Source: Thermomonas sp.
GTDB lineage: Bacteria; Pseudomonadota; Gammaproteobacteria; Xanthomonadales; Xanthomonadaceae
Length of the DNA: 64,000 nucleotides
NCBI RefSeq assembly: GCF_023953935.1
Contig: NZ_JAMLIW010000001.1
Span: 248,001-312,000, forward strand
Direction of reading: 5' to 3'
Under the pieces are notes generated by a model. It saw only the letters and a list, made by a program, of their open reading frames with translations, ran no database searches and was not told the origin of the DNA. This document shows positions 22,757 through 31,020 of the stretch, in pieces. Every line of letters begins with the position of its first letter. Within the stretch, counting starts at the first letter, position 1. The position numbers and the translations under genes were made by a program.

Positions 22757-24052
22757 TCAGGCCAGCCCCTGCCAGCGCTCGCGCAGCGCCTCCAGCCGCA
22801 GGTCGGCGGCGGCCCCGGGTGAGCGGCGTGCCGCCAGCGAGCCTTCCGGGCTGCGCCCCCGCCCGGCGCTGTCGGCAGACGCCGCCGCAGTCCTGTAGGC
22901 ATCACGAAACGGAATACCGGCCAGCGCCGCTTCGACCGCCACGTCGGTGGCGTACATGCCCGAATCGATCGCGCCGCGCAGACGTTCTTCACGCCATTCG
23001 AGACTGGCCAGCAGCGCCGGCAGCAGTTCGAGTGCAGCCAGACCGCGTCCAAAGCCGTGGAAGATGGCCCCCTTGGTCGCCTGTAGGTCGCGGTGGTAGC
23101 CGGACGGCAGCGACAGCAGTTGTTCGATCTCGGTGCGCGCCGCCGCCACGCTGGCATGGCTGGCGCGCATCAGTTCGATCACGTCGGGATTGCGCTTGTT
23201 GGGCATGATCGAGGAGCCGGTGGTGTACTGCGCCGGCAACGCGATGCAGCCGAACTCGGCGCTGGCGAACAGCGACAGGTCCCAGGCCAGGCGGCGCAGG
23301 TCGAGGGTGGCGCTGCCCAGCGCCTCCAGCGCCGCCAACTCGAACTTGCCGCGCGACAGCTGCGCGTAGATCGGGCTGACCTGCATCCGCGCAAAGCCCA
23401 GCGCCGCGGTGGTGTGCTCGCGATCGAGCGGGATGTTCACGCCGTAGCCGGCCGCCGTGCCCAGCGGGTTGCAATCGATCAGGGCCAGGGTGTCACCAGC
23501 GCGGATGGCATCATCGATGAACGCCTCCGCCCAGCCCGCCCACCACATCCCGGCGCTGGACACCACGGCGCGCTGCAGATGGGTGTAGCCGGGCATCGGC
23601 AGCGCGCGCTCGGCTTCGGCGCGCGCCAGCGCGACCTTGGCGATCTCGCGTGCCAGCGCCTGCAAATGCGCCAGCTTTTCCTTCAACCACAAGCGCGTGG
23701 CGACCAGCACCTGGTCATTGCGACTGCGGCCGGTATGGATCTTCTTGCCGACATCCCCCAGCCGCTCGGTCAGCCGCGCCTCGATCGCGGAATGGCCGTC
23801 CTCGAAGCGCGCATCGAGCACGAACGCGCCGCTGCGGAAATCCTCGGCCAGCTGCGTCAGTTCCTGCTCCAGCCCCGCCAGCTCGTCCGAAGTCAGGAGG
23901 CCGATGCGCTGCAATCCCTGTGCGTGGGCGCTGCTGGCGAAGATGTCGTGCAGGAAGAATTCACGATCCAGCAGCACGTCGTCACCGGCGAGGAACGCCT
24001 GGATCCGCGCATCGACCTCGACGCCGGGTTTTTGCCATAGCAAATCAGTCAT
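22757..24052 (-). CDS. argH: Argininosuccinate lyase
   Basis: Final step of arginine synthesis: argininosuccinate to arginine plus fumarate, cytosolic. 431 residues of the fumarase/aspartase superfamily, with [19 protein letters not shown] near residue 105, PGYTHLQRA, and the signature [19 protein letters not shown] carrying the catalytic serine loop. Length fits the xanthomonad type (slightly shorter than E. coli). It is the last gene of the arg cluster, 128 nt after argC, with a repeat element in the gap. Confidence 0.96.
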
Positions 24053-24180: not shown

Positions 24181-25131
24181 CTACCGTGGGACACCTTCGA
24201 GCTCATCCAGCCCGAACGCCCGATTGAGATTTTGCAACGCCTGCGTCGCCGCGCCTTTCAGCAGATTGTCCTCGGTTGCCACCACCACCAGCCGGCGGCC
24301 GTCGTCGGACAGCGTGAAACCGCCGACTTCGACGTGGTGCCGCCCGGCGATGCGGCTCACCCACGGGGCCTGGTCCTGCACCCGCACCAGCGGCTCGCCC
24401 GCGTAGCGCTCGTGGTAGCGCGCCAGCACCGCCGCCCGCGTGAACGGCCCGGACAGATGCAGGTTGGCGGTGATCGTGATGCCGCGGAAATGCGGCGCCA
24501 CGTGCGGCATGAATTCAACCGCATGCCCCAACTGCGCCGAGACTTCGCGCTCGTGGACATGGCCGATCAAGGCATACGGCATCAGGTTGTCGCGCAGCAG
24601 ATCGGGATTGTTGCGGTCCGATGGCGTGGTGCCGGCACCGGAATGCCCGGACACGCCGAAGCATTGCAACGGCGCCGCGCTCAATGCATCCAGCATCGGG
24701 GCAATGGCCAACTGCATCGCGGTGGCATAGCAGCCGGGGTTGCTGATGCGTCGCTGCCCGTTGTAGTGCCCCCGGGTGCGCTCGGGCAGACCGTAGTACC
24801 AGCCCGCATCGAATCGGTGGTCGGCGGACAGATCGACGAACACCGGATCCTGGCCCGCCGCGTCGAAGGCGGCGACGATCGCGGCGGACTTGCCGTTGGG
24901 CAAGGCCAGGATCACCGCATCGGCGCCCAGTTCCGGCAACTGCCCATGCGCCGGATTGGAATACCGCAGCGCACCGTCGAAGCCGTCGTTGTGGTCGGCC
25001 ACGCGCTGGCCGTCCAGCTCGCGCGAGGTGACAAACGCCAGCACGAAGCGCGGATGCGCGGCGAGCAGGCGGATCAATTCGGCGCCGGTATGGCCGCGCG
25101 CGCCGATCAGGCCGATCTTGATCGCATTCAC
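24181..25131 (-). CDS. argC: N-acetyl-gamma-glutamyl-phosphate reductase
   Basis: NADPH-dependent reduction of N-acetylglutamyl phosphate to the semialdehyde. 316 residues with the Rossmann motif [22 protein letters not shown], the catalytic cysteine in [15 protein letters not shown], and [12 protein letters not shown] with [13 protein letters not shown] later. The start is GTG at 25131: GGAGG precedes it, the product begins (M)NAIKIGLIG, and the GTGA overlaps the stop of the preceding argB/A gene. Such overlap suggests translational coupling. Confidence 0.95.
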
Positions 25132-26474
25132 GTCGGTTCCTCCAGCGTTGCCGGCCGCTGCGCGCACAGCTGCACGTAGCGTTCGATCCGGTCGAAGCCG
25201 GCCGGGCCGGACCAGAACACCTTCCATTTCTCACGCTTGATGCAGCCGTCGGATTCGGCAACGTAGAACGGGTTGACCGGATTGCCGTGGCGCGAGCGCC
25301 AGAACAGTTCCGGGGTTTCTTCCCGCATCACGTTCCACACCGCCCGTCCCAGGCCCTCGCCCTGCGCCGCATCGGTCACCGCGAACTTGTCCATGTAGGG
25401 TTGGCCATCGACGCTGGCCAGCACGATCGCGGCGCGGTAGCTCTCGCTGACGTAGGCCCGCAGCAGCGTCGTGCGCGACACATAATCGGGAACCAGCCTG
25501 CGGCCGAAGCTGGATTCGATCAGCCGGGTCAGGCGCTCGCCATCCAACTGGTCCCAGGCAACGGCGCGCAGCACCCGCTCGCCGCGCCGGACCAGGGTGC
25601 CGGACCCCTTGTGGGTGAACAGCTCCTTGGCCAGTTCCGAAGGCTTGGTGATCGACACCGACGAAGCCCGCGGCAGGCCATCCAGCAGATCCTTGATCTG
25701 TTCGATCTTGACCCGCATGCCGCCGTCGATCCACGGCTGCTGCATCAGGTGGTCGTATTCGGTGGACAGATTGATCGAATCGATGATCTTGCCGGCGGCA
25801 TCCAGCAGGCCGCCGGTGCCGGTCAGGAAAATGATCTTGTACGGCTGCAGCACCTGCACCAATTCCTTGGCGGCGAAGTCGGCATTGACGTTGAGGATCT
25901 GCCCGCCGATGGTTTCGCCCAGGGACGCGATCACCGGGATCGAGCCGGATTGCAGGCTGGCTTGAATGGGGGCCAGATCCACGCGCTTGACCTCGCCCAC
26001 CAGGCCGAAGCGTTCACGATCCAGGTAATCCGCCTCGAACACGCCGCTGACGATACTGGTGGCGCGTGCATCCGCCGCCTGCAGGGCCTCCACCAGCTTC
26101 AGGTTCTGCGCATGGAACACCCGGCGCACGATGGCCAGCGCTTCCGGCGATGTCACCCGCAGGCCGTCGATGGTTTTCTTCTCGATGCCGGCCGTGGACA
26201 GTTCCAGGTCCAGCTGCGGGCCGGCGCCATGGAGGACGATCGGGGTCAGGCCGACGTCCTGCAAGAATGCCAGCGACGACACCAGCGCGTCGAGGTCATC
26301 GCGCAGCACCGCGCCACCCACCTTCACCACCGCAAAGCGCGCGGCATCGAGCTGCGAGAAGCGTTTCAGATACTGCGAGATTTCCTTGGCACTGCCCATG
26401 CTGGACAGCAGGCGCACGATGGTCTGCCGCGTCTGCGGGTCATGGATGGCCTGGGGTTTCAGGAACGGGGTCAC
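25128..26474 (-). CDS. argB: Bifunctional acetylglutamate kinase/N-acetylglutamate synthase
   Basis: 448-residue fusion of the xanthomonad NAGS/K type. An N-terminal amino-acid kinase domain (about 1-285) has [33 protein letters not shown] and [14 protein letters not shown]. The C-terminal GNAT-like domain (about 300-440) has [19 protein letters not shown] followed by RAVW, the acetyl-CoA loop of vertebrate-like synthases. It therefore likely makes and phosphorylates N-acetylglutamate. The start is GTG 26474, only 6 nt after the argE stop; an internal ATG 25 codons later has no obvious ribosome site. Its presence explains the absence of a separate argA here. Confidence 0.92.
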
Positions 26475-26480
26475 GGTCGG

Positions 26481-27566
26481 TCAGTTCCCGAGGATGCGAA
26501 CGATGGAAGTGGTGTAGTGCAGGAGTTGGTCGAACAACACGAACTCATCGGCGGCATGCGCCTGCGCGATCTCACCGGGGCCGTAGACGACGGCGGTCAG
26601 TCCGGCCTGCGAGAACAATGCGGCTTCGGTCCAGAAATCGACGGCCGCGCCGATCGGCAGCTGCATGGATTCGGCCAGCGCCTGGGCGGCCCGCCGCCGC
26701 TGCTCGGCGCCCGCGCTGTCACCAGCGGGCAACGACGGCCCACGGAAGGTTTCCTCGTAGCGCTGCAATGCCCCCACCGCGGCGCAGGCGCTGAAGCGCG
26801 CGTGCAGGGCATCCACATCATGCGATGGCAGCGGCCGGAAACCGAAGCGGACCTCGGCACTGGGCGCGATCACGTTAGCCTTGATGCCGCCTTCGACCTT
26901 GCCGATGTTGAAACGCAGCCCGCTCAGGCCATCGAAGTGCGCGCCACTCTCGGCCTCGACCAGATCCAGCGCCCGACTGCCCCAGCGCATCGCCTGGTGC
27001 AGCGCGCTGGCCTGCAGCGCGTTGGCGCCCGAGGCATGCCCGGCTTCGCCGTTGAACTGCAGCAGGACCGAGCTGATGCCGCGATGCGCCAGCACCGCTT
27101 CGCAGCGCGTCGGCTCGGCGACGATTGCCTCATCGAAGCCGTGCTTGCGCGCAAGGAAAGCCGCAATGCAGCGCGGATCGTTGGCCTCTTCATCGGACGA
27201 AAACAGGAACGCGGCATCGCCCGAGGTGGCGCTTGCAGCCGCAAGCAGCCCGGCGGCGGCGCCCTTGATATCGCAGGCACCAAGGCCAATCGCGCGGTCG
27301 GCCGCCAACCGCAGCTGCAAGGGATCGGCGCTCCAGGCCGCCGTCGCCGGCACGGTGTCCAGATGCACGTTGAACACCCGCCGCGGGTTGCCGCGCACGG
27401 CCAGCATCGACACCGCTCCGTCACCATGGTCGGTGATTTCGATGCGAAAGCCCGGGAGCTGGACGCGCAGATAGTCGAAGATCCCGTCCGTGCCGATCCG
27501 GCGCGGCGGATTGCGGGTGTCGAACGACACCAGCGCTTCGAGGTGAGGGAGGACGTTATTGAGCAT
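26481..27566 (-). CDS. argE: ArgE-type deacetylase (N-acetylcitrulline/acetylornithine deacetylase)
   Basis: M20-family zinc hydrolase of 361 residues. Metal ligands are visible in VHLDTVPA (His, Asp), GACDIKGAAAG (Asp), SSDEEAND (Glu-Glu) and near the end AHAADEF (His). In organisms with N-acetylornithine carbamoyltransferase this enzyme acts on N-acetylcitrulline to give citrulline; the argF' gene here supports that assignment. The start at 27566 (MLNNVLPHLEALVSFDTRNPP) fits the family; an upstream extension would read into the 87-bp repeat array. argB/A follows by 6 nt. Confidence 0.9.
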   Translation of the reverse strand: MLNNVLPHLEALVSFDTRNPPRRIGTDGIFDYLRVQLPGFRIEITDHGDGAVSMLAVRGNPRRVFNVHLDTVPATAAWSADPLQLRLAADRAIGLGACDIKGAAAGLLAAASATSGDAAFLFSSDEEANDPRCIAAFLARKHGFDEAIVAEPTRCEAVLAHRGISSVLLQFNGEAGHASGANALQASALHQAMRWGSRALDLVEAESGAHFDGLSGLRFNIGKVEGGIKANVIAPSAEVRFGFRPLPSHDVDALHARFSACAAVGALQRYEETFRGPSLPAGDSAGAEQRRRAAQALAESMQLPIGAAVDFWTEAALFSQAGLTAVVYGPGEIAQAHAADEFVLFDQLLHYTTSIVRILGN

Positions 27567-27630
27567 TTCGTTGTCCAAACATTTGTCCTGTCCCGTTCGC
27601 AGGATGTGCAGCTGCTGTGCCCCGTTCATG

Positions 27631-27916
27631 GTTCGACAGGCTCACCACGAACGGATCACATCCTGCCGTTCGTCCTGGGCTGGTCGAAGGATGAACGGCC
27701 AATCGGCTCCATTCGCGGTTCGACAGGCTCACCACGAACGGATCACATCCTGCCGTTCGTCCTGGGCTGGTCGAAGGATGAACGGCCAATCGGCTCCATT
27801 CGCGGTTCGACAGGCTCACCACGAACGGATCACTTCCTGCCGTTCGTCCTGAGCTGGTCGAAGGATGAACGGCCAATCGGTTCCATTCGCGGCTCGACAG
27901 GCTCACCACGAACGGG
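27631..27916. repeat. Tandem array of 87-bp units, 3.3 copies
   Basis: GTTCGACAGGCTCACCACGA starts at 27631, 27718 and 27805 and, with one change, at 27892: a strict 87-bp period. The first two units are almost identical; the third and the partial fourth carry a few changes. Each unit contains the scattered element CCGTTCGT-CCTG-GGCTGGTCGAAGG facing GTTCGACAGGCTCACC, so it can fold into an imperfect hairpin. The array fills the argG-argE gap. Because 87 is divisible by 3 it creates a spurious open frame of 29-residue repeats on the minus strand. Confidence 0.9.
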
Positions 27917-27940
27917 GATTTGAAACCCATCACGGGCAGC

Positions 27941-29197
27941 TCAGCGATCGCCATTCACCTGCGCCCACAAGGTGCTGCTCATGCCGAACAGCTTGATGAA
28001 TCCTTCGGCCTCTTCCACGCCCCAATCCGCTGATTGCGCATAGGTGGCCCCCTTGCCACTGAGGATGTGCGGCGAGCGCACCGCGATCGCATCGACCCGG
28101 CCGCCGTTGGTACGCAGGGTCACTTCACCGCTGACCTTTTGCTGCGAGGCTGCAAGGAAGGCTTCCAGGTCGGTCTTCAGAGGATCGTGGTAGAAGCCCT
28201 CGTACACCAGCTCCACCCACTTGCGCGCCACTTCCGGCTTGAAGCGGTTTTGCAGTTTGGACAGTACCGCTTCCTCCAGCGCGCGGTGGGCGACCAGCAG
28301 GGCGGTCAGGCCGGGCGCTTCGAACACGATCCGCCCCTTCAGACCGATCGTGGTATCGCCGGTATACAGGCCACGCCCCACGCCGTACTGGGCAAACATG
28401 ATGTTGAGCTTGGCCAGGAGTTTCTCGCCTGCCAGCGGATGACCGTCCAGTGCCACCGCCTCGCCGCGCTCGAAACGCAGGCTCGCTTCCATCGGCTCGG
28501 CCGGCCACTGCTCGCGGCGTGCACACCAGCCGCGCGCGCCCTCGCCGGGCGCTTCCCAGGCGTCGATTTCGCCACCGGACAGGGTGACGCCCAGCAGGTT
28601 CTCGTTGATGGTGTAGGCCTTCTGCTTGCTGCGCACGCCAAAGCCGCGCGCTTCCAGATAGGCCTGCTCGTAAGCACGCGTTTGCGTGTGCTCCTTCTGG
28701 ATTTCCCGGATCGGGGCGATGATGCGGCACTGGCTCTGCGCCTTCACCGCGAGGTCAAACCGCACCTGGTCATTGCCCATGCCGGTGCAGCCGTGGGCGA
28801 TTGCGTCAGTCCCCAATTCCCGCGCACGCGCCAGTGCGGCATCGACGATCAGGTAGCGGTCGGACACCAGCAGCGGATACTGGCCCTGGTAGCCCTCGCC
28901 GGCCCAGACGAAGGGTTTGACGAAATCACGCCACAGCGCCGGCCCGCCGTCGATGGTGACGTGCGAGGCCACGCCCAGTTCCGCCGCACGTGCCTCGATG
29001 GTGGCGCGTTCCTCGGCACCCACGCCCCCGGTATCGGCGAACACGGTGTGCACGTTCCAGCCCCGTTCCTTCAGCCAGGGCACGCAGAAGCTGGTGTCGA
29101 GGCCTCCGCTGAACGCCAGGACGCAGTCCTTGCTTTCAGCGGGGCCGTGATTGGTGATGGGCGATTCGTGATTCGGAGAGGCAGTTTGCTGTGACAT
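27941..29197 (-). CDS. argG: Argininosuccinate synthase
   Basis: ATP-dependent ligation of citrulline and aspartate, 418 residues. The pyrophosphatase P-loop is [19 protein letters not shown], then [20 protein letters not shown] and [17 protein letters not shown]. The conserved protein normally begins a few residues before VLAFSGG; here about 22 residues precede it, reading [20 protein letters not shown]. That extension is encoded by degenerate copies of the heptanucleotide repeat found just upstream at 29243-29326. No other start lies between the ATG at 29197 and the P-loop, so the extension appears to be real. It sits between argF' and argE. Confidence 0.94.
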
Positions 29198-29242: not shown

Positions 29243-29326
29243 GAATCCCGAATCCCGAATCCCGAATCACGAATCACGAATCACGAATCACGAATCACGA
29301 ATCACGAATCACGAATCACGAATCAC
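29243..29326. repeat. Twelve-copy heptanucleotide tandem array
   Basis: Three copies of GAATCCC followed by nine perfect copies of GAATCAC (plus strand), exactly 84 bp. On the coding strand this is GTGATTC/GGGATTC. The TGA stop codon of argF' lies inside the first-read units (29316-29318), so its last residues Asp-Ser come from the repeat. Degenerate copies reappear at about 29150-29180 inside the start of argG. Arrays of this type are prone to slippage. Confidence 0.95.
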
Positions 29327-30338
29327 GCCCGTCATGGCTGCCCACAAGGGCCGCCATGACGGCCTTCTGCACATGCAGACGGTTCTCGGCTTCGTCGATG
29401 GCGATGCAGCGCGGTGAATCCATCACCGCGTCGGTGGCCTTGACGTTGCGGCGCAGCGGCAGGCAGTGGCTGAACACGCCGTTGTTGGTCAGCGCCATCT
29501 TGGCTTCATCGACGATGAAGTGCTTGAACCGGTCGCGGATGGGCTTCTCCGGCTCCCAGTTGCCGAAATACGGCAGCGCCCCCCAGCTCTTGGCATAGAC
29601 CACGTCGGCGCCGGCATAGGCGCTTGCGATGTCGTGGCTGACGTGCAGCGAGCCGCCGCTTTCGGCCACATTGTCGGCCGCCCAGCCCATATAACGCTGA
29701 TCGAGGATGTATTCCTCGGTCGGGCACAGCAGGGTGACATCCATGCCCAGGCGGGTGGCAATGGTCAGCGCGGAGTTGGCGACGGCGGTATTGAGCGGCT
29801 TGGGGTGATATGTCCAGGTCAACACGTATTTCCTGCCGCGCAGGTCGGTGGTGCCGAAGTGTTCCTGCAAGGCCAGCGCGTGGGCCAGCTCCTGGCAGGG
29901 ATGGGTGATGGTTTCCATGTTGATGACGGGCACCGTCGAATACCTGGCGAACGACTTCAACACGCGGTCCTGACGGTCGGCCTGCCAATCGACGAACTTC
30001 GGGAAGGCGCGCACGCCGATCAAATCCACATAGCGGCCCAGCACCCGGGCCACTTCCTTGATGTGTTCTTCGGTGTCGCCATCCATCACCGTGCCGAGGT
30101 TGAATTCGATCGGCCACGCGTCCTTGCCCGGCTGCAGCACGATGGCGTGCCCGCCCAGCTGGAACGCGCCCAGCTCGAAGCTGGTGCGGGTGCGCATGGA
30201 TGGATTGAAAAAGACCAGCGCGATGGATTTGCCCTTCAGCGCATCGCCGGCTTTCTCGCGCTTGAACCGCGCCGCGTCGGCCAGCAGCGCGTCCAGCTCG
30301 GTGCGGCTCCAATCCTGGGTGTTGAGGAAATGCTTCAT
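29316..30338 (-). CDS. argF': N-acetylornithine carbamoyltransferase
   Basis: 340-residue transcarbamylase using N-acetyl-L-ornithine rather than ornithine, giving N-acetylcitrulline. The carbamoyl-phosphate loop is FFNPSMRTRTSFELGAFQLG. The segment QPGKDAWPIEFNLGTVMDGD carries the Glu known to set acetyl-ornithine specificity in Xanthomonas campestris. HPCQELAHALALQEHFG and LTNNGVFSHCLPLRRNVKA complete the family pattern. It matches what I remember of the X. campestris enzyme nearly throughout. The start at 30338 (MKHFLNTQDW) is 40 nt after a strong terminator that is part of a likely attenuator. The stop codon lies inside a heptanucleotide array. Confidence 0.95.
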   Translation of the reverse strand: MKHFLNTQDWSRTELDALLADAARFKREKAGDALKGKSIALVFFNPSMRTRTSFELGAFQLGGHAIVLQPGKDAWPIEFNLGTVMDGDTEEHIKEVARVLGRYVDLIGVRAFPKFVDWQADRQDRVLKSFARYSTVPVINMETITHPCQELAHALALQEHFGTTDLRGRKYVLTWTYHPKPLNTAVANSALTIATRLGMDVTLLCPTEEYILDQRYMGWAADNVAESGGSLHVSHDIASAYAGADVVYAKSWGALPYFGNWEPEKPIRDRFKHFIVDEAKMALTNNGVFSHCLPLRRNVKATDAVMDSPRCIAIDEAENRLHVQKAVMAALVGSHDGRDS

Positions 30339-30377: not shown

Positions 30378-30405
30378 AAAAAACCCAGCCTGCGGGGCTG
30401 GGTTT
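30378..30405 (-). terminator. Attenuator terminator before argF'
   Basis: On the minus strand the arms are AAACCCAGCC (30405-30396) and GGCTGGGTTT (30390-30381), with loop CCGCA, followed by a run giving six T in total. This 10-bp intrinsic terminator lies between the leader peptide stop codon and the argF' start, so it can only act on transcripts heading into the arg genes. Confidence 0.85.
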
Positions 30406-30436
30406 CGGAAGTTGAAGCGCATGCAAACGATCCGGA

Positions 30437-30538
30437 TTACCCAGCTGGCGGCGTCAGTTCCGGTCGGCGCGCGCGCGAGGTCATGCCCGAGGCCATCCGG
30501 GCGGCGACTGCATGACGGGGGGCAAGGGCGGCGTTCAT
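30437..30538 (-). CDS. Arg-containing leader peptide of the arg operon
   Basis: 33-codon frame ATG 30538 to TAA 30437. It has Arg at positions 8, 14, 22, 24 and 25, with the cluster SRARRPE about 8 codons before the stop. GAGG lies 12 nt upstream of the ATG. A smaller 11-codon frame (30535-30570, two Arg codons) ends in an ATGA overlap with this start. It resembles no stable protein; its role is inferred from position and from the antiterminator/terminator geometry that follows. Confidence 0.65.
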   Translation of the reverse strand: MNAALAPRHAVAARMASGMTSRARRPELTPPAG

Positions 30539-30588
30539 CGAGGCGCGAATCCTCGCACGTCCATGTTCATCGCGCAAGCGCTGCGCCG

Positions 30589-31020
30589 TCAATTCAGCGG
30601 CGCCGGCATGATCGAGATGCGGATGCGCAGGCGATTGCCAGGATCGCTGCCCATCCGGGTCCGGAACCGGCTGCCGCGATAGACGTAATCGACGTCATAG
30701 GCGATCGTGCGCCGGAATTCGCGGACCACCGGCGCCATCCGGCAATTGCGCAGCCGACCGGAATCCTGGCCCGCGGGCACCGGCACCTGCGTTTCCGGGT
30801 GCTGCGGGTCGCTGCAGACGCGCTCGCGGTTGGTCGTGCGCAGCACCTGCTGGACCGGACGCACGGACATCACCTGCGCGTAGTCGTAGCGCACGTTCTC
30901 GATCGGCAGCACGACCTCGCGCGGCGGCTGCCCCTGCGCTGACGCCTGCGCATGTGCCAGCCCGCCCACGCACAGGGACATGGGCAGGAACAAACGCGGG
31001 ATTTGCCGCAGCGCGAACAT
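30589..31020 (-). CDS. Exported hypothetical protein, related to glycine-zipper 2TM surface proteins
   Basis: 143 residues with a signal peptide (LFLPMSLCVGGLAHAQA) and a beta-rich mature part. The segments YDYAQVMSVRPVQQVLRTTN with RVCSD, and VDYVYRGSRFRTRMGSDPGN with RLRIRISI, resemble the flanks of the glycine-zipper 2TM family, but the glycine zipper itself is absent. Two Cys may form a disulfide. It is divergent from cysS, and its stop is only 18 nt from the first leader frame of the arg operon, so read-through into the arg leader is possible. Function unknown. Confidence 0.7.
   Translation of the reverse strand: MFALRQIPRLFLPMSLCVGGLAHAQASAQGQPPREVVLPIENVRYDYAQVMSVRPVQQVLRTTNRERVCSDPQHPETQVPVPAGQDSGRLRNCRMAPVVREFRRTIAYDVDYVYRGSRFRTRMGSDPGNRLRIRISIMPAPLN

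Follow-up and report, generated by a model that had tools for sequence, protein, structure and literature searches.

A probable ribosome-mediated arginine attenuator with a conserved leader peptide before the argF' cluster in Thermomonas and its relatives

Sequence analysis of the window (the whole 64,000-nucleotide stretch of Thermomonas sp. DNA analysed) and its relatives indicated that the argF'-argG-argE-argB/A-argC-argH cluster is probably controlled by a ribosome-mediated transcription attenuator, a reading to which we give a probability of about 0.9. The element is real and conserved and is very probably a functional arginine attenuator of a known mechanistic kind, carrying an unusual frozen peptide and an unusual frozen codon. 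Its sensor is most likely the charging of the tRNA-Arg that reads CGU, CGC and CGA, acting in a near-leaderless attenuator. As far as we could search the literature, an arginine attenuator at this place is newly recognised.

The features of the locus are listed in Table 1. On the minus strand, read 5' to 3', the order was a small hypothetical gene (30589-31020), the TTGCGC/GAGGAT pair, the 33-codon ORF, GCTGGGT at its stop, the terminator and argF'. The first-pass annotation had described a 33-codon frame with five Arg codons and an SRARRPE cluster, GCTGGGT over its last codons and stop (30445-30439) with a complementary ACCCAGC (30403-30397) on the 5' side of a terminator that has a 10-bp stem and six T, and argF' 40 nt further on (start at 30338); the coordinates of the window bore out each of these. 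The X. campestris relative of argB/A is described as bifunctional in the available text of its source (PMC1865377).

Table 1. Positions in the window of the candidate attenuator and the genes downstream of it.
Feature	Positions	Strand	Remarks
Probable -35, TTGCGC	30572..30577	-	17-nt spacing to the extended -10 in 78/84 pattern-bearing family loci
Probable extended -10, TGC-GAGGAT	30549..30557	-	hexamer 30554-30549; 10 nt before leader ATG
Rfam RF02242 (Xoo5) match	30417..30540	-	54.9 bits; gathering score 50
Leader ORF	30437..30538	-	ATG at 30538, TAA 30439-30437; 33 codons, MNAALAPRHAVAARMASGMTSRARRPELTPPAG; five Arg; kept in relatives
Conserved peptide block GMTSRARR, codons 18-25	30464..30487	-	3 vs 108 changes (115 loci)
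CGA at the end of the Arg run, predicted as the chief stall codon	30464..30466	-	CGA in 81/81 loci
Segment 2, GCTGGGT, putative antiterminator arm	30439..30445	-	overlaps last leader codons and stop; pairs with 30397-30403; co-varies between families
Segment 3, ACCCAGC, arm common to antiterminator and terminator	30397..30403	-	within 5' arm of the 10-bp hairpin
Intrinsic terminator, AAACCCAGCC-CCGCA-GGCTGGGTTT and T run	30378..30405	-	10-bp hairpin about 30405-30381; T6 30383-30378; segment 4 at 30383-30389
argF', N-acetylornithine carbamoyltransferase	29316..30338	-	first gene of the cluster; NCBIfam NF003384, 632 bits
argG	27941..29197	-	NF003385
argE-type deacetylase	26481..27629	-	NF006439
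argB/A, long-type acetylglutamate kinase	25128..26474	-	NF003386
argC	24181..25227	-	TIGR01850, match begins at residue 36; true start probably inside the listed frame
argH	22757..24052	-	TIGR00838

Between argE and argG, a frame at 27556-27954 consisted of repeated PFVVSLSN.EW..LAVHPSTS.GRTAG units and is probably an intergenic repeat, not a gene. The hypothetical gene on the minus strand at 30589-31020, between cysS and the attenuator, had a weak NCBIfam match far under the cut-off. No similar leader was seen upstream of carA in the window's genome.

Judged from the window by itself, a run of three Arg in eight codons was not above chance (shuffle p = 0.51; 66% GC), and its density was dropped as evidence; the folding energy was also unremarkable (z of -0.85 for the whole leader, and -1.50). 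The significance of the element rests on its relatives.

Relatives of argF' were taken from a scan of named genomes, and the best 80 of more than 570 were kept; they came from Xanthomonas, Stenotrophomonas, Pseudoxanthomonas, Lysobacter, Luteimonas, Thermomonas, Coralloluteibacterium and unclassified relatives. A search for a conserved leader frame in relatives had been proposed by the first-pass annotation, and the same frame with the GMTSRARR block was found upstream of argF' in 80/80 of these best loci, under strong peptide-level constraint. On a tree of 115 loci (the window, the best 80 and 34 further block-bearing loci), GMTSRARR showed 3 changes at codon positions 1 and 2 vs 108 at position 3; the corresponding values were 245 vs 129 in the N-terminal flank of the leader and 78 vs 40 in its C-terminal flank. 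Only 2/315 eight-codon stretches of argF' were as frozen at positions 1 and 2, and R22, R24 and R25 were kept in 115/115 loci. Pairwise pN/pS was 1.03 for the N-terminal part, 0.13 for the core and 0.84 for the C-terminal part, with a median of 0.14 for the argF' stretches. The pattern of 3 vs 108 changes therefore indicated that GMTSRARR is translated and selected as a peptide.

Constraint was also observed at the level of the codon. In 81/81 loci (the window and the best 80 of more than 570), the last Arg of the run was CGA and the Pro after it was CCG; CGA made up 0.3% of the Arg codons in argF' of those same loci. Among the further block-bearing loci, CGA occupied the same codon in 32/34 and the next codon in the remaining two. 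Conserved control codons for the amino acid of the pathway, as expected of an attenuator, were present. Third positions were frozen at S21 (TCG) as well as at R25 (CGA), and a frozen third position of CGA is what a stall codon would be expected to show. At S21 (30478-30476 of the window), one third-position change was counted over 115 loci, and several neighbouring third positions varied freely. The SMTSRARR leader of locus L187 (genome G199), with CGT GCC CGC CGT, was the only block-type leader seen without CGA.

The families of the order were labelled f1-f12, f1 being that of the window. At E<=0.01, a leader-peptide profile matched 130/250 genomes of the order, strongly in f1, f2, f3 and f12, and the 54 f1 and 51 f12 genomes listed with argF' were all among the matches. 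Out of 40 stretches fetched on these peptide matches, the block was present in 34, each time immediately before argF'; the other six (L175-L180) were weak matches with no block and were dropped as chance. Loci L083-L146 lay outside the analysed set. Beyond the order, no argF' match was found in the class at E<=1e-90: of 185 class genomes 3 matched, all in the window's family. Inside the order, an argF' match (E<=1e-60) was missing in 32/250 genomes, several of them in f8.

In f4 and f6-f10, a different peptide with an Arg run and a terminator stood before argF' (e.g. NPRRRRVSQ, IRRPRRTK, VVVRRNRRRIS and VVVRRRRPEK). A terminator together with at least three Arg in eight codons was found in 151/159 argF' upstream regions over all families and in 36/42 loci of f4 and f6-f10, by a criterion that accepts any frame, is loose in GC-rich DNA and scored a frame other than the true leader in, for example, L149, L166 and L169. 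The count of 159 left out L188 and L216 (contig ends), L207 (same genome as L192) and L234-L236 (argF-like). The eight failing regions were one f1 locus, one f5 genome, five f9 loci and the f8 locus L229, where the script took the wrong hairpin. A terminator-like hairpin was present in 153/159 regions, two of these (L222 and L229) being doubtful picks. One f5 and five f9 loci (L192, L206, L220, L222, L227 and L228) had argF' with no visible leader.

Arg runs beat dinucleotide shuffles in 29/38 loci of f4 and f6-f10 [f8: 8/8 (AT-rich); f7: 11/15; f4: 3/3; f6: 2/2; f10: 1/1; f9: 4/9], the terminators of L229 and L226 having been set by eye after the script chose others. In the block-bearing families, the Arg density was mostly not above composition, with p<0.05 in 1/11 f1, 0/5 f12, 0/3 f2 and 0/8 f3 loci, where the test took 11 of 87 f1 and 5 of 18 f12 loci. 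Because Arg runs exceeded shuffles in families without the block, the comparison suggests that the codon run probably came first and that the peptide became frozen later.

Outside the block-bearing families, 30/37 Arg clusters of f4 and f6-f10 contained CGA. Near the stall site of these 37 leaders, 55/175 Arg codons were CGA and 8/175 lay outside CGU/CGC/CGA; in argF' of f4, f7, f8 and f9 the values were 44/437 and 150/437. CGA was absent in 3/3 f4 loci and present in 4/8 f8 loci. According to the available text of PMC4046918, enteric bacteria read CGU, CGC and CGA with one tRNA species; in the Salmonella his leader, CGA is slower than the other two and, within Arg-Arg pairs, raises readthrough and de-attenuates.

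Peptide-level conservation beside the presumed stall site, which is looked for in arrest peptides, was found in GMTSRARR, and the freezing of GMTS is possibly due to nascent-peptide arrest. A hybrid sensor is tentatively conceivable, in which the GMTSRARR families have turned an ancestral Arg-codon attenuator into an arrest peptide: the nascent chain and the slow CGA would hold the ribosome near stalling, and the switch would be thrown by a slight fall in charged tRNA-Arg or by a directly bound ligand, either arginine or an acetylated argF'-pathway intermediate. That arrest is itself the primary switch, with GMTSRARR stalling the ribosome in the exit tunnel by its sequence, arginine or an acetylated intermediate possibly as the ligand, and the Arg acting as residues and not as tRNA sensors, is unlikely. 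The non-Arg residues of the block (G, M, T, S, A) were as frozen as its Arg, with third positions free at G, T and A, and plain codon counting would not need frozen non-Arg residues. However, in f4 and f6-f10 the peptide was unconserved, yet the Arg run and terminator were found in 36/42 loci, and the constraint on the third position of CGA acts on the codon, not on the peptide.

The attenuation reading also depends on alternative pairings downstream of the Arg codons. In a 7-mer table that picks segment 2 as the best fit, and so is biased towards pairing (the shuffle and swap tests being fairer), segments 2/3/4 read GCTGGGT/ACCCAGC/GCTGGGT in most f1 loci, mostly GCCGGGT/ACCCGGC/GCCGGGT in f12, and GCCAGGTT/AACCTGGC/GCCAGGTT in one f8 locus, with near variants in other f8 loci. 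In further f8 loci, CTCTTTGG paired with CCAAAGA in and beside the terminator loop. The antiterminator was shifted in L224, L225, L229 and L230 (f8), where a TTTGG-type sequence at the leader end paired with CCAAA in and beside the terminator loop, not with the terminator arm proper.

The antiterminator duplex was better than shuffles in 97/151 loci (window's own p = 0.050) and failed this test in 54/151, L222 being left out. Native arms paired better than the arms of other families in 96/137 cases; the result was weak in f7 (2/15) and f1 (50/74), in part owing to arms that hardly differ from family to family. Covarying stems, the other feature proposed for a check in relatives, were found: the antiterminator and terminator arms changed together between families, as mutually exclusive structures of an attenuator do. 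By the same comparison, the translated leader ORF ended near the antiterminator. Between the last Arg codon and the duplex, the median distance was 20 nt in f1 and f7, 19 in f12, and 6 in f4, 8 in f10 and 10 in f8; in the three short cases the automatic pick of the last Arg or of the duplex start may be misplaced. The ORF stopped before segment 2 in f3 and some other loci, with segment 2 still downstream of the Arg codons, and this fits a model of stalled vs terminating ribosomes.

Folding of the window RNA from 15 nt past CGA to the terminator loop gave an antiterminator fold of -20.1 kcal/mol; with the ribosome at the stop codon, the terminator fold was left. With segment 4 present and the ribosome at CGA, the terminator was the better fold (-25.6). 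The terminator wins once segment 4 exists, and antitermination must therefore be kinetic, decided while RNA polymerase is still between the segments. Pairing of the CGA region with the post-stop segment, as in a 1:2 (pause or protector) hairpin, reached p<0.05 in 5/86 loci, which was not above chance; such hairpins are common, not universal, among trp/his-type attenuators. This pairing was also rejected as the cause of the frozen CGA, the A of which was paired in only 44/86 f1 loci.

In the proposed mechanism, transcription would start at or just upstream of the leader AUG, and ribosomes would follow RNA polymerase, translating the 33-codon leader. When the charged tRNA-Arg for CGU/CGC/CGA is plentiful, the ribosome would reach the stop codon and cover segment 2, so that segment 3 pairs with segment 4 and transcription terminates 40 nt before argF'. 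When it is short, the ribosome would stall in R22-A-R24-R25, chiefly at the slow CGA; segment 2, about 20 nt ahead, would stay free and pair with segment 3 before segment 4 is made, the terminator would come too late, and the operon would be transcribed. The attenuator would fill the role held elsewhere by ArgR. Sequence comparison shows that the leader is translated, that its Arg codons and CGA are constrained, that the alternative pairings occur, that the element goes with argF' and that ArgR is absent from the genomes searched, whereas we infer which way and how strongly the cluster responds to arginine, which tRNA is read and in what order the steps occur. The leader had been read as an attenuator from the start, and the frame kept in 80/80 loci (best 80 of more than 570), the peptide constraint and the covarying arms support that reading. 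The trp/his-type geometry then claimed for it was likewise supported by the comparison; frozen residues other than Arg are an addition to what trp/his-type attenuation involves.

Promoter sequences were consistent with such a start. An extended -10 (TGn-nAnnAT) was located 6-10 nt upstream of the start codon in 84/86 f1 loci by best-fit search; 78 of these 84 had a 17-nt spacer, and the five commonest -35 hexamers, all TTGC-, accounted for 76/84 (also best fit). TTGACG at 30592-30587, earlier suggested as the -35, shares bases with the stop codon of the preceding gene, and 32 nt separate it from the -10; it was rejected for spacing and conservation, and TTGCGC fits the family pattern. The f1 form of the promoter was not found in f12, where the hexamers picked in 9/17 loci were weak and differed from one another, and all lacked TG. 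A Shine-Dalgarno-like 4-mer preceded the start in 33/84 f1 pattern loci and was usually the GAGG of the -10. The 124-position Rfam Xoo5 model begins 2 nt upstream of the leader AUG, and in the available text of PMC3039613 the X. oryzae Xoo5 RNA is 124 nt long with a RACE-mapped 5' end, which we infer to be the start of the Rfam model. A transcription start upstream of the terminator therefore exists. According to the first-pass annotation, a start mapped downstream of the terminator would refute attenuation; a further start there, besides the RACE-mapped one, is possible. From the promoter position, the RACE end and the model start, it follows that the f1 leader mRNA is probably leaderless, and the leader ORF of the window probably lies on a leaderless or nearly leaderless mRNA. 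By eye, some f7 loci seemed to have a longer 5' stretch.

The region is a curated Rfam family, Xoo5, an identity that the earlier reading had missed; the window scored above the gathering score, and in its family the model had E<=0.001 in 146/198 genomes, 82 of them over the cut-off. According to the available text of Liang et al. 2011 (PMC3039613), sRNA-Xoo5 lies between PXO_00354 and PXO_00353, the latter given in Table 4 as N-acetylornithine carbamoyltransferase, and it was described as an sRNA; the words argF and leader did not occur in that text. Northern blots of X. oryzae showed Xoo5 bands of about 130 and 100 nt, and sRNA deletion mutants, including that of Xoo5, were reported in the same text to have no growth defect and unaffected expression of flanking genes. 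These bands are shorter than the roughly 160 nt predicted for the terminated leader; 3'-end processing, and media in which the switch hardly matters, could explain the short bands and the null mutants. No description of the element as an attenuator was found in titles and abstract starts of the openly licensed papers searched. A term search did not find the word arginine in a genome-wide attenuator survey (PMC2965389).

It is very improbable that Xoo5 is a trans-acting small RNA, or that the leader peptide acts in trans, with the place before argF' incidental. Rfam files RF02242 as an sRNA, and the available text of PMC3039613 has discrete RNAs of about 130 and 100 nt. Against this, 34/34 block-bearing stretches (of the 40 fetched) lay directly before argF', the conservation was patterned by codon, and the window's genome held a single convincing copy of the leader peptide, the next match having an E of 0.042. 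That the hairpin merely terminates the upstream gene 30589-31020, argF' having its own promoter further down, is scarcely credible and was rejected, for although that gene was on the same strand in 79/80 family loci (best 80 of more than 570), 26/27 loci of other families had no upstream tblastn match to it, 21 of those 26 had an Arg leader and terminator (L229 by eye), and the promoter pattern stood directly before the leader in 84/86 f1 loci.

Attenuation of the cluster agreed with the regulator context. ArgR represses arginine genes in those gammaproteobacteria that have it, according to the available text of PMC5343134. ArgR (PF01316) was found in 0/60 genomes of the window's family, E. 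coli and other controls being positive, and in 8/151 genomes of the order, all in f11. Three f11 genomes examined had only an ordinary argF-like gene (41-45% identity) and no leader. This distribution therefore indicated that ArgR absence, argF' use and the attenuator broadly go together, the exceptions being the one f5 and five f9 loci that have argF' but no visible leader and the 32/250 genomes without an argF' match. In G207:C17, G224:C6 and G255:C58 (f11), an argR-like gene lay about 1.2 kb from the argF-like gene.

In gammaproteobacteria, arginine operons are known to be controlled by ArgR repression, and in the sampled genomes of the order no ArgR was found outside one family. This order, with many plant-associated and environmental genera, would have a ribosome-read RNA switch alongside the unusual argF' (acetylcitrulline) route, and the catalogued sRNA family Xoo5 gains a proposed cis-acting function. 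One tRNA-Arg is predicted to be the sensor and CGA the stall codon. The leaders form a natural series, with free Arg runs at one end and a frozen peptide at the other, that offers a way to study how a codon-counting attenuator may become an arrest peptide.

The trp, his, leu and thr attenuators of Proteobacteria have leader codons for the end product, an antiterminator arm near the stop and an intrinsic terminator before the first gene. The window shares end-product codons, a putative antiterminator arm near the leader stop and a terminator before the first gene; unlike those systems, it concerns arginine, has only three clustered control codons, one of them the slow CGA, and has a frozen non-regulatory peptide stretch, an apparently leaderless mRNA and a repressor gene that was not found. 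The fungal arginine attenuator peptide is an upstream peptide through which arginine controls arginine genes, in a eukaryotic, translational system with arginine-induced arrest; likened by description, it shares arginine control through an upstream peptide. ArgR repression acts on the same genes with the same logic and differs in using a DNA-binding repressor. Rfam RF02242, Xoo5 (sRNA-Xoo5 of Xanthomonas oryzae), has the same sequence and place and differs in that the text available describes it as an sRNA with no function assigned. Where Arg codons serve as a sensor, the closest precedent is ORF34/SpeFL of Salmonella speF, which in the available text of PMC6386406 is a conserved short ORF whose consecutive Arg codons sense arginine through ribosome pausing, rare and frequent Arg codons both having worked. 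ORF34/SpeFL is a DUF2618 peptide with an HIRRT core (PMC6386406), from which GMTSRARR was set apart by eye only. According to the same text, its target is polyamine synthesis and its means are Rho, mRNA folding and RNase G, with no intrinsic terminator before arginine genes, whereas such a terminator stands before argF' in the window.
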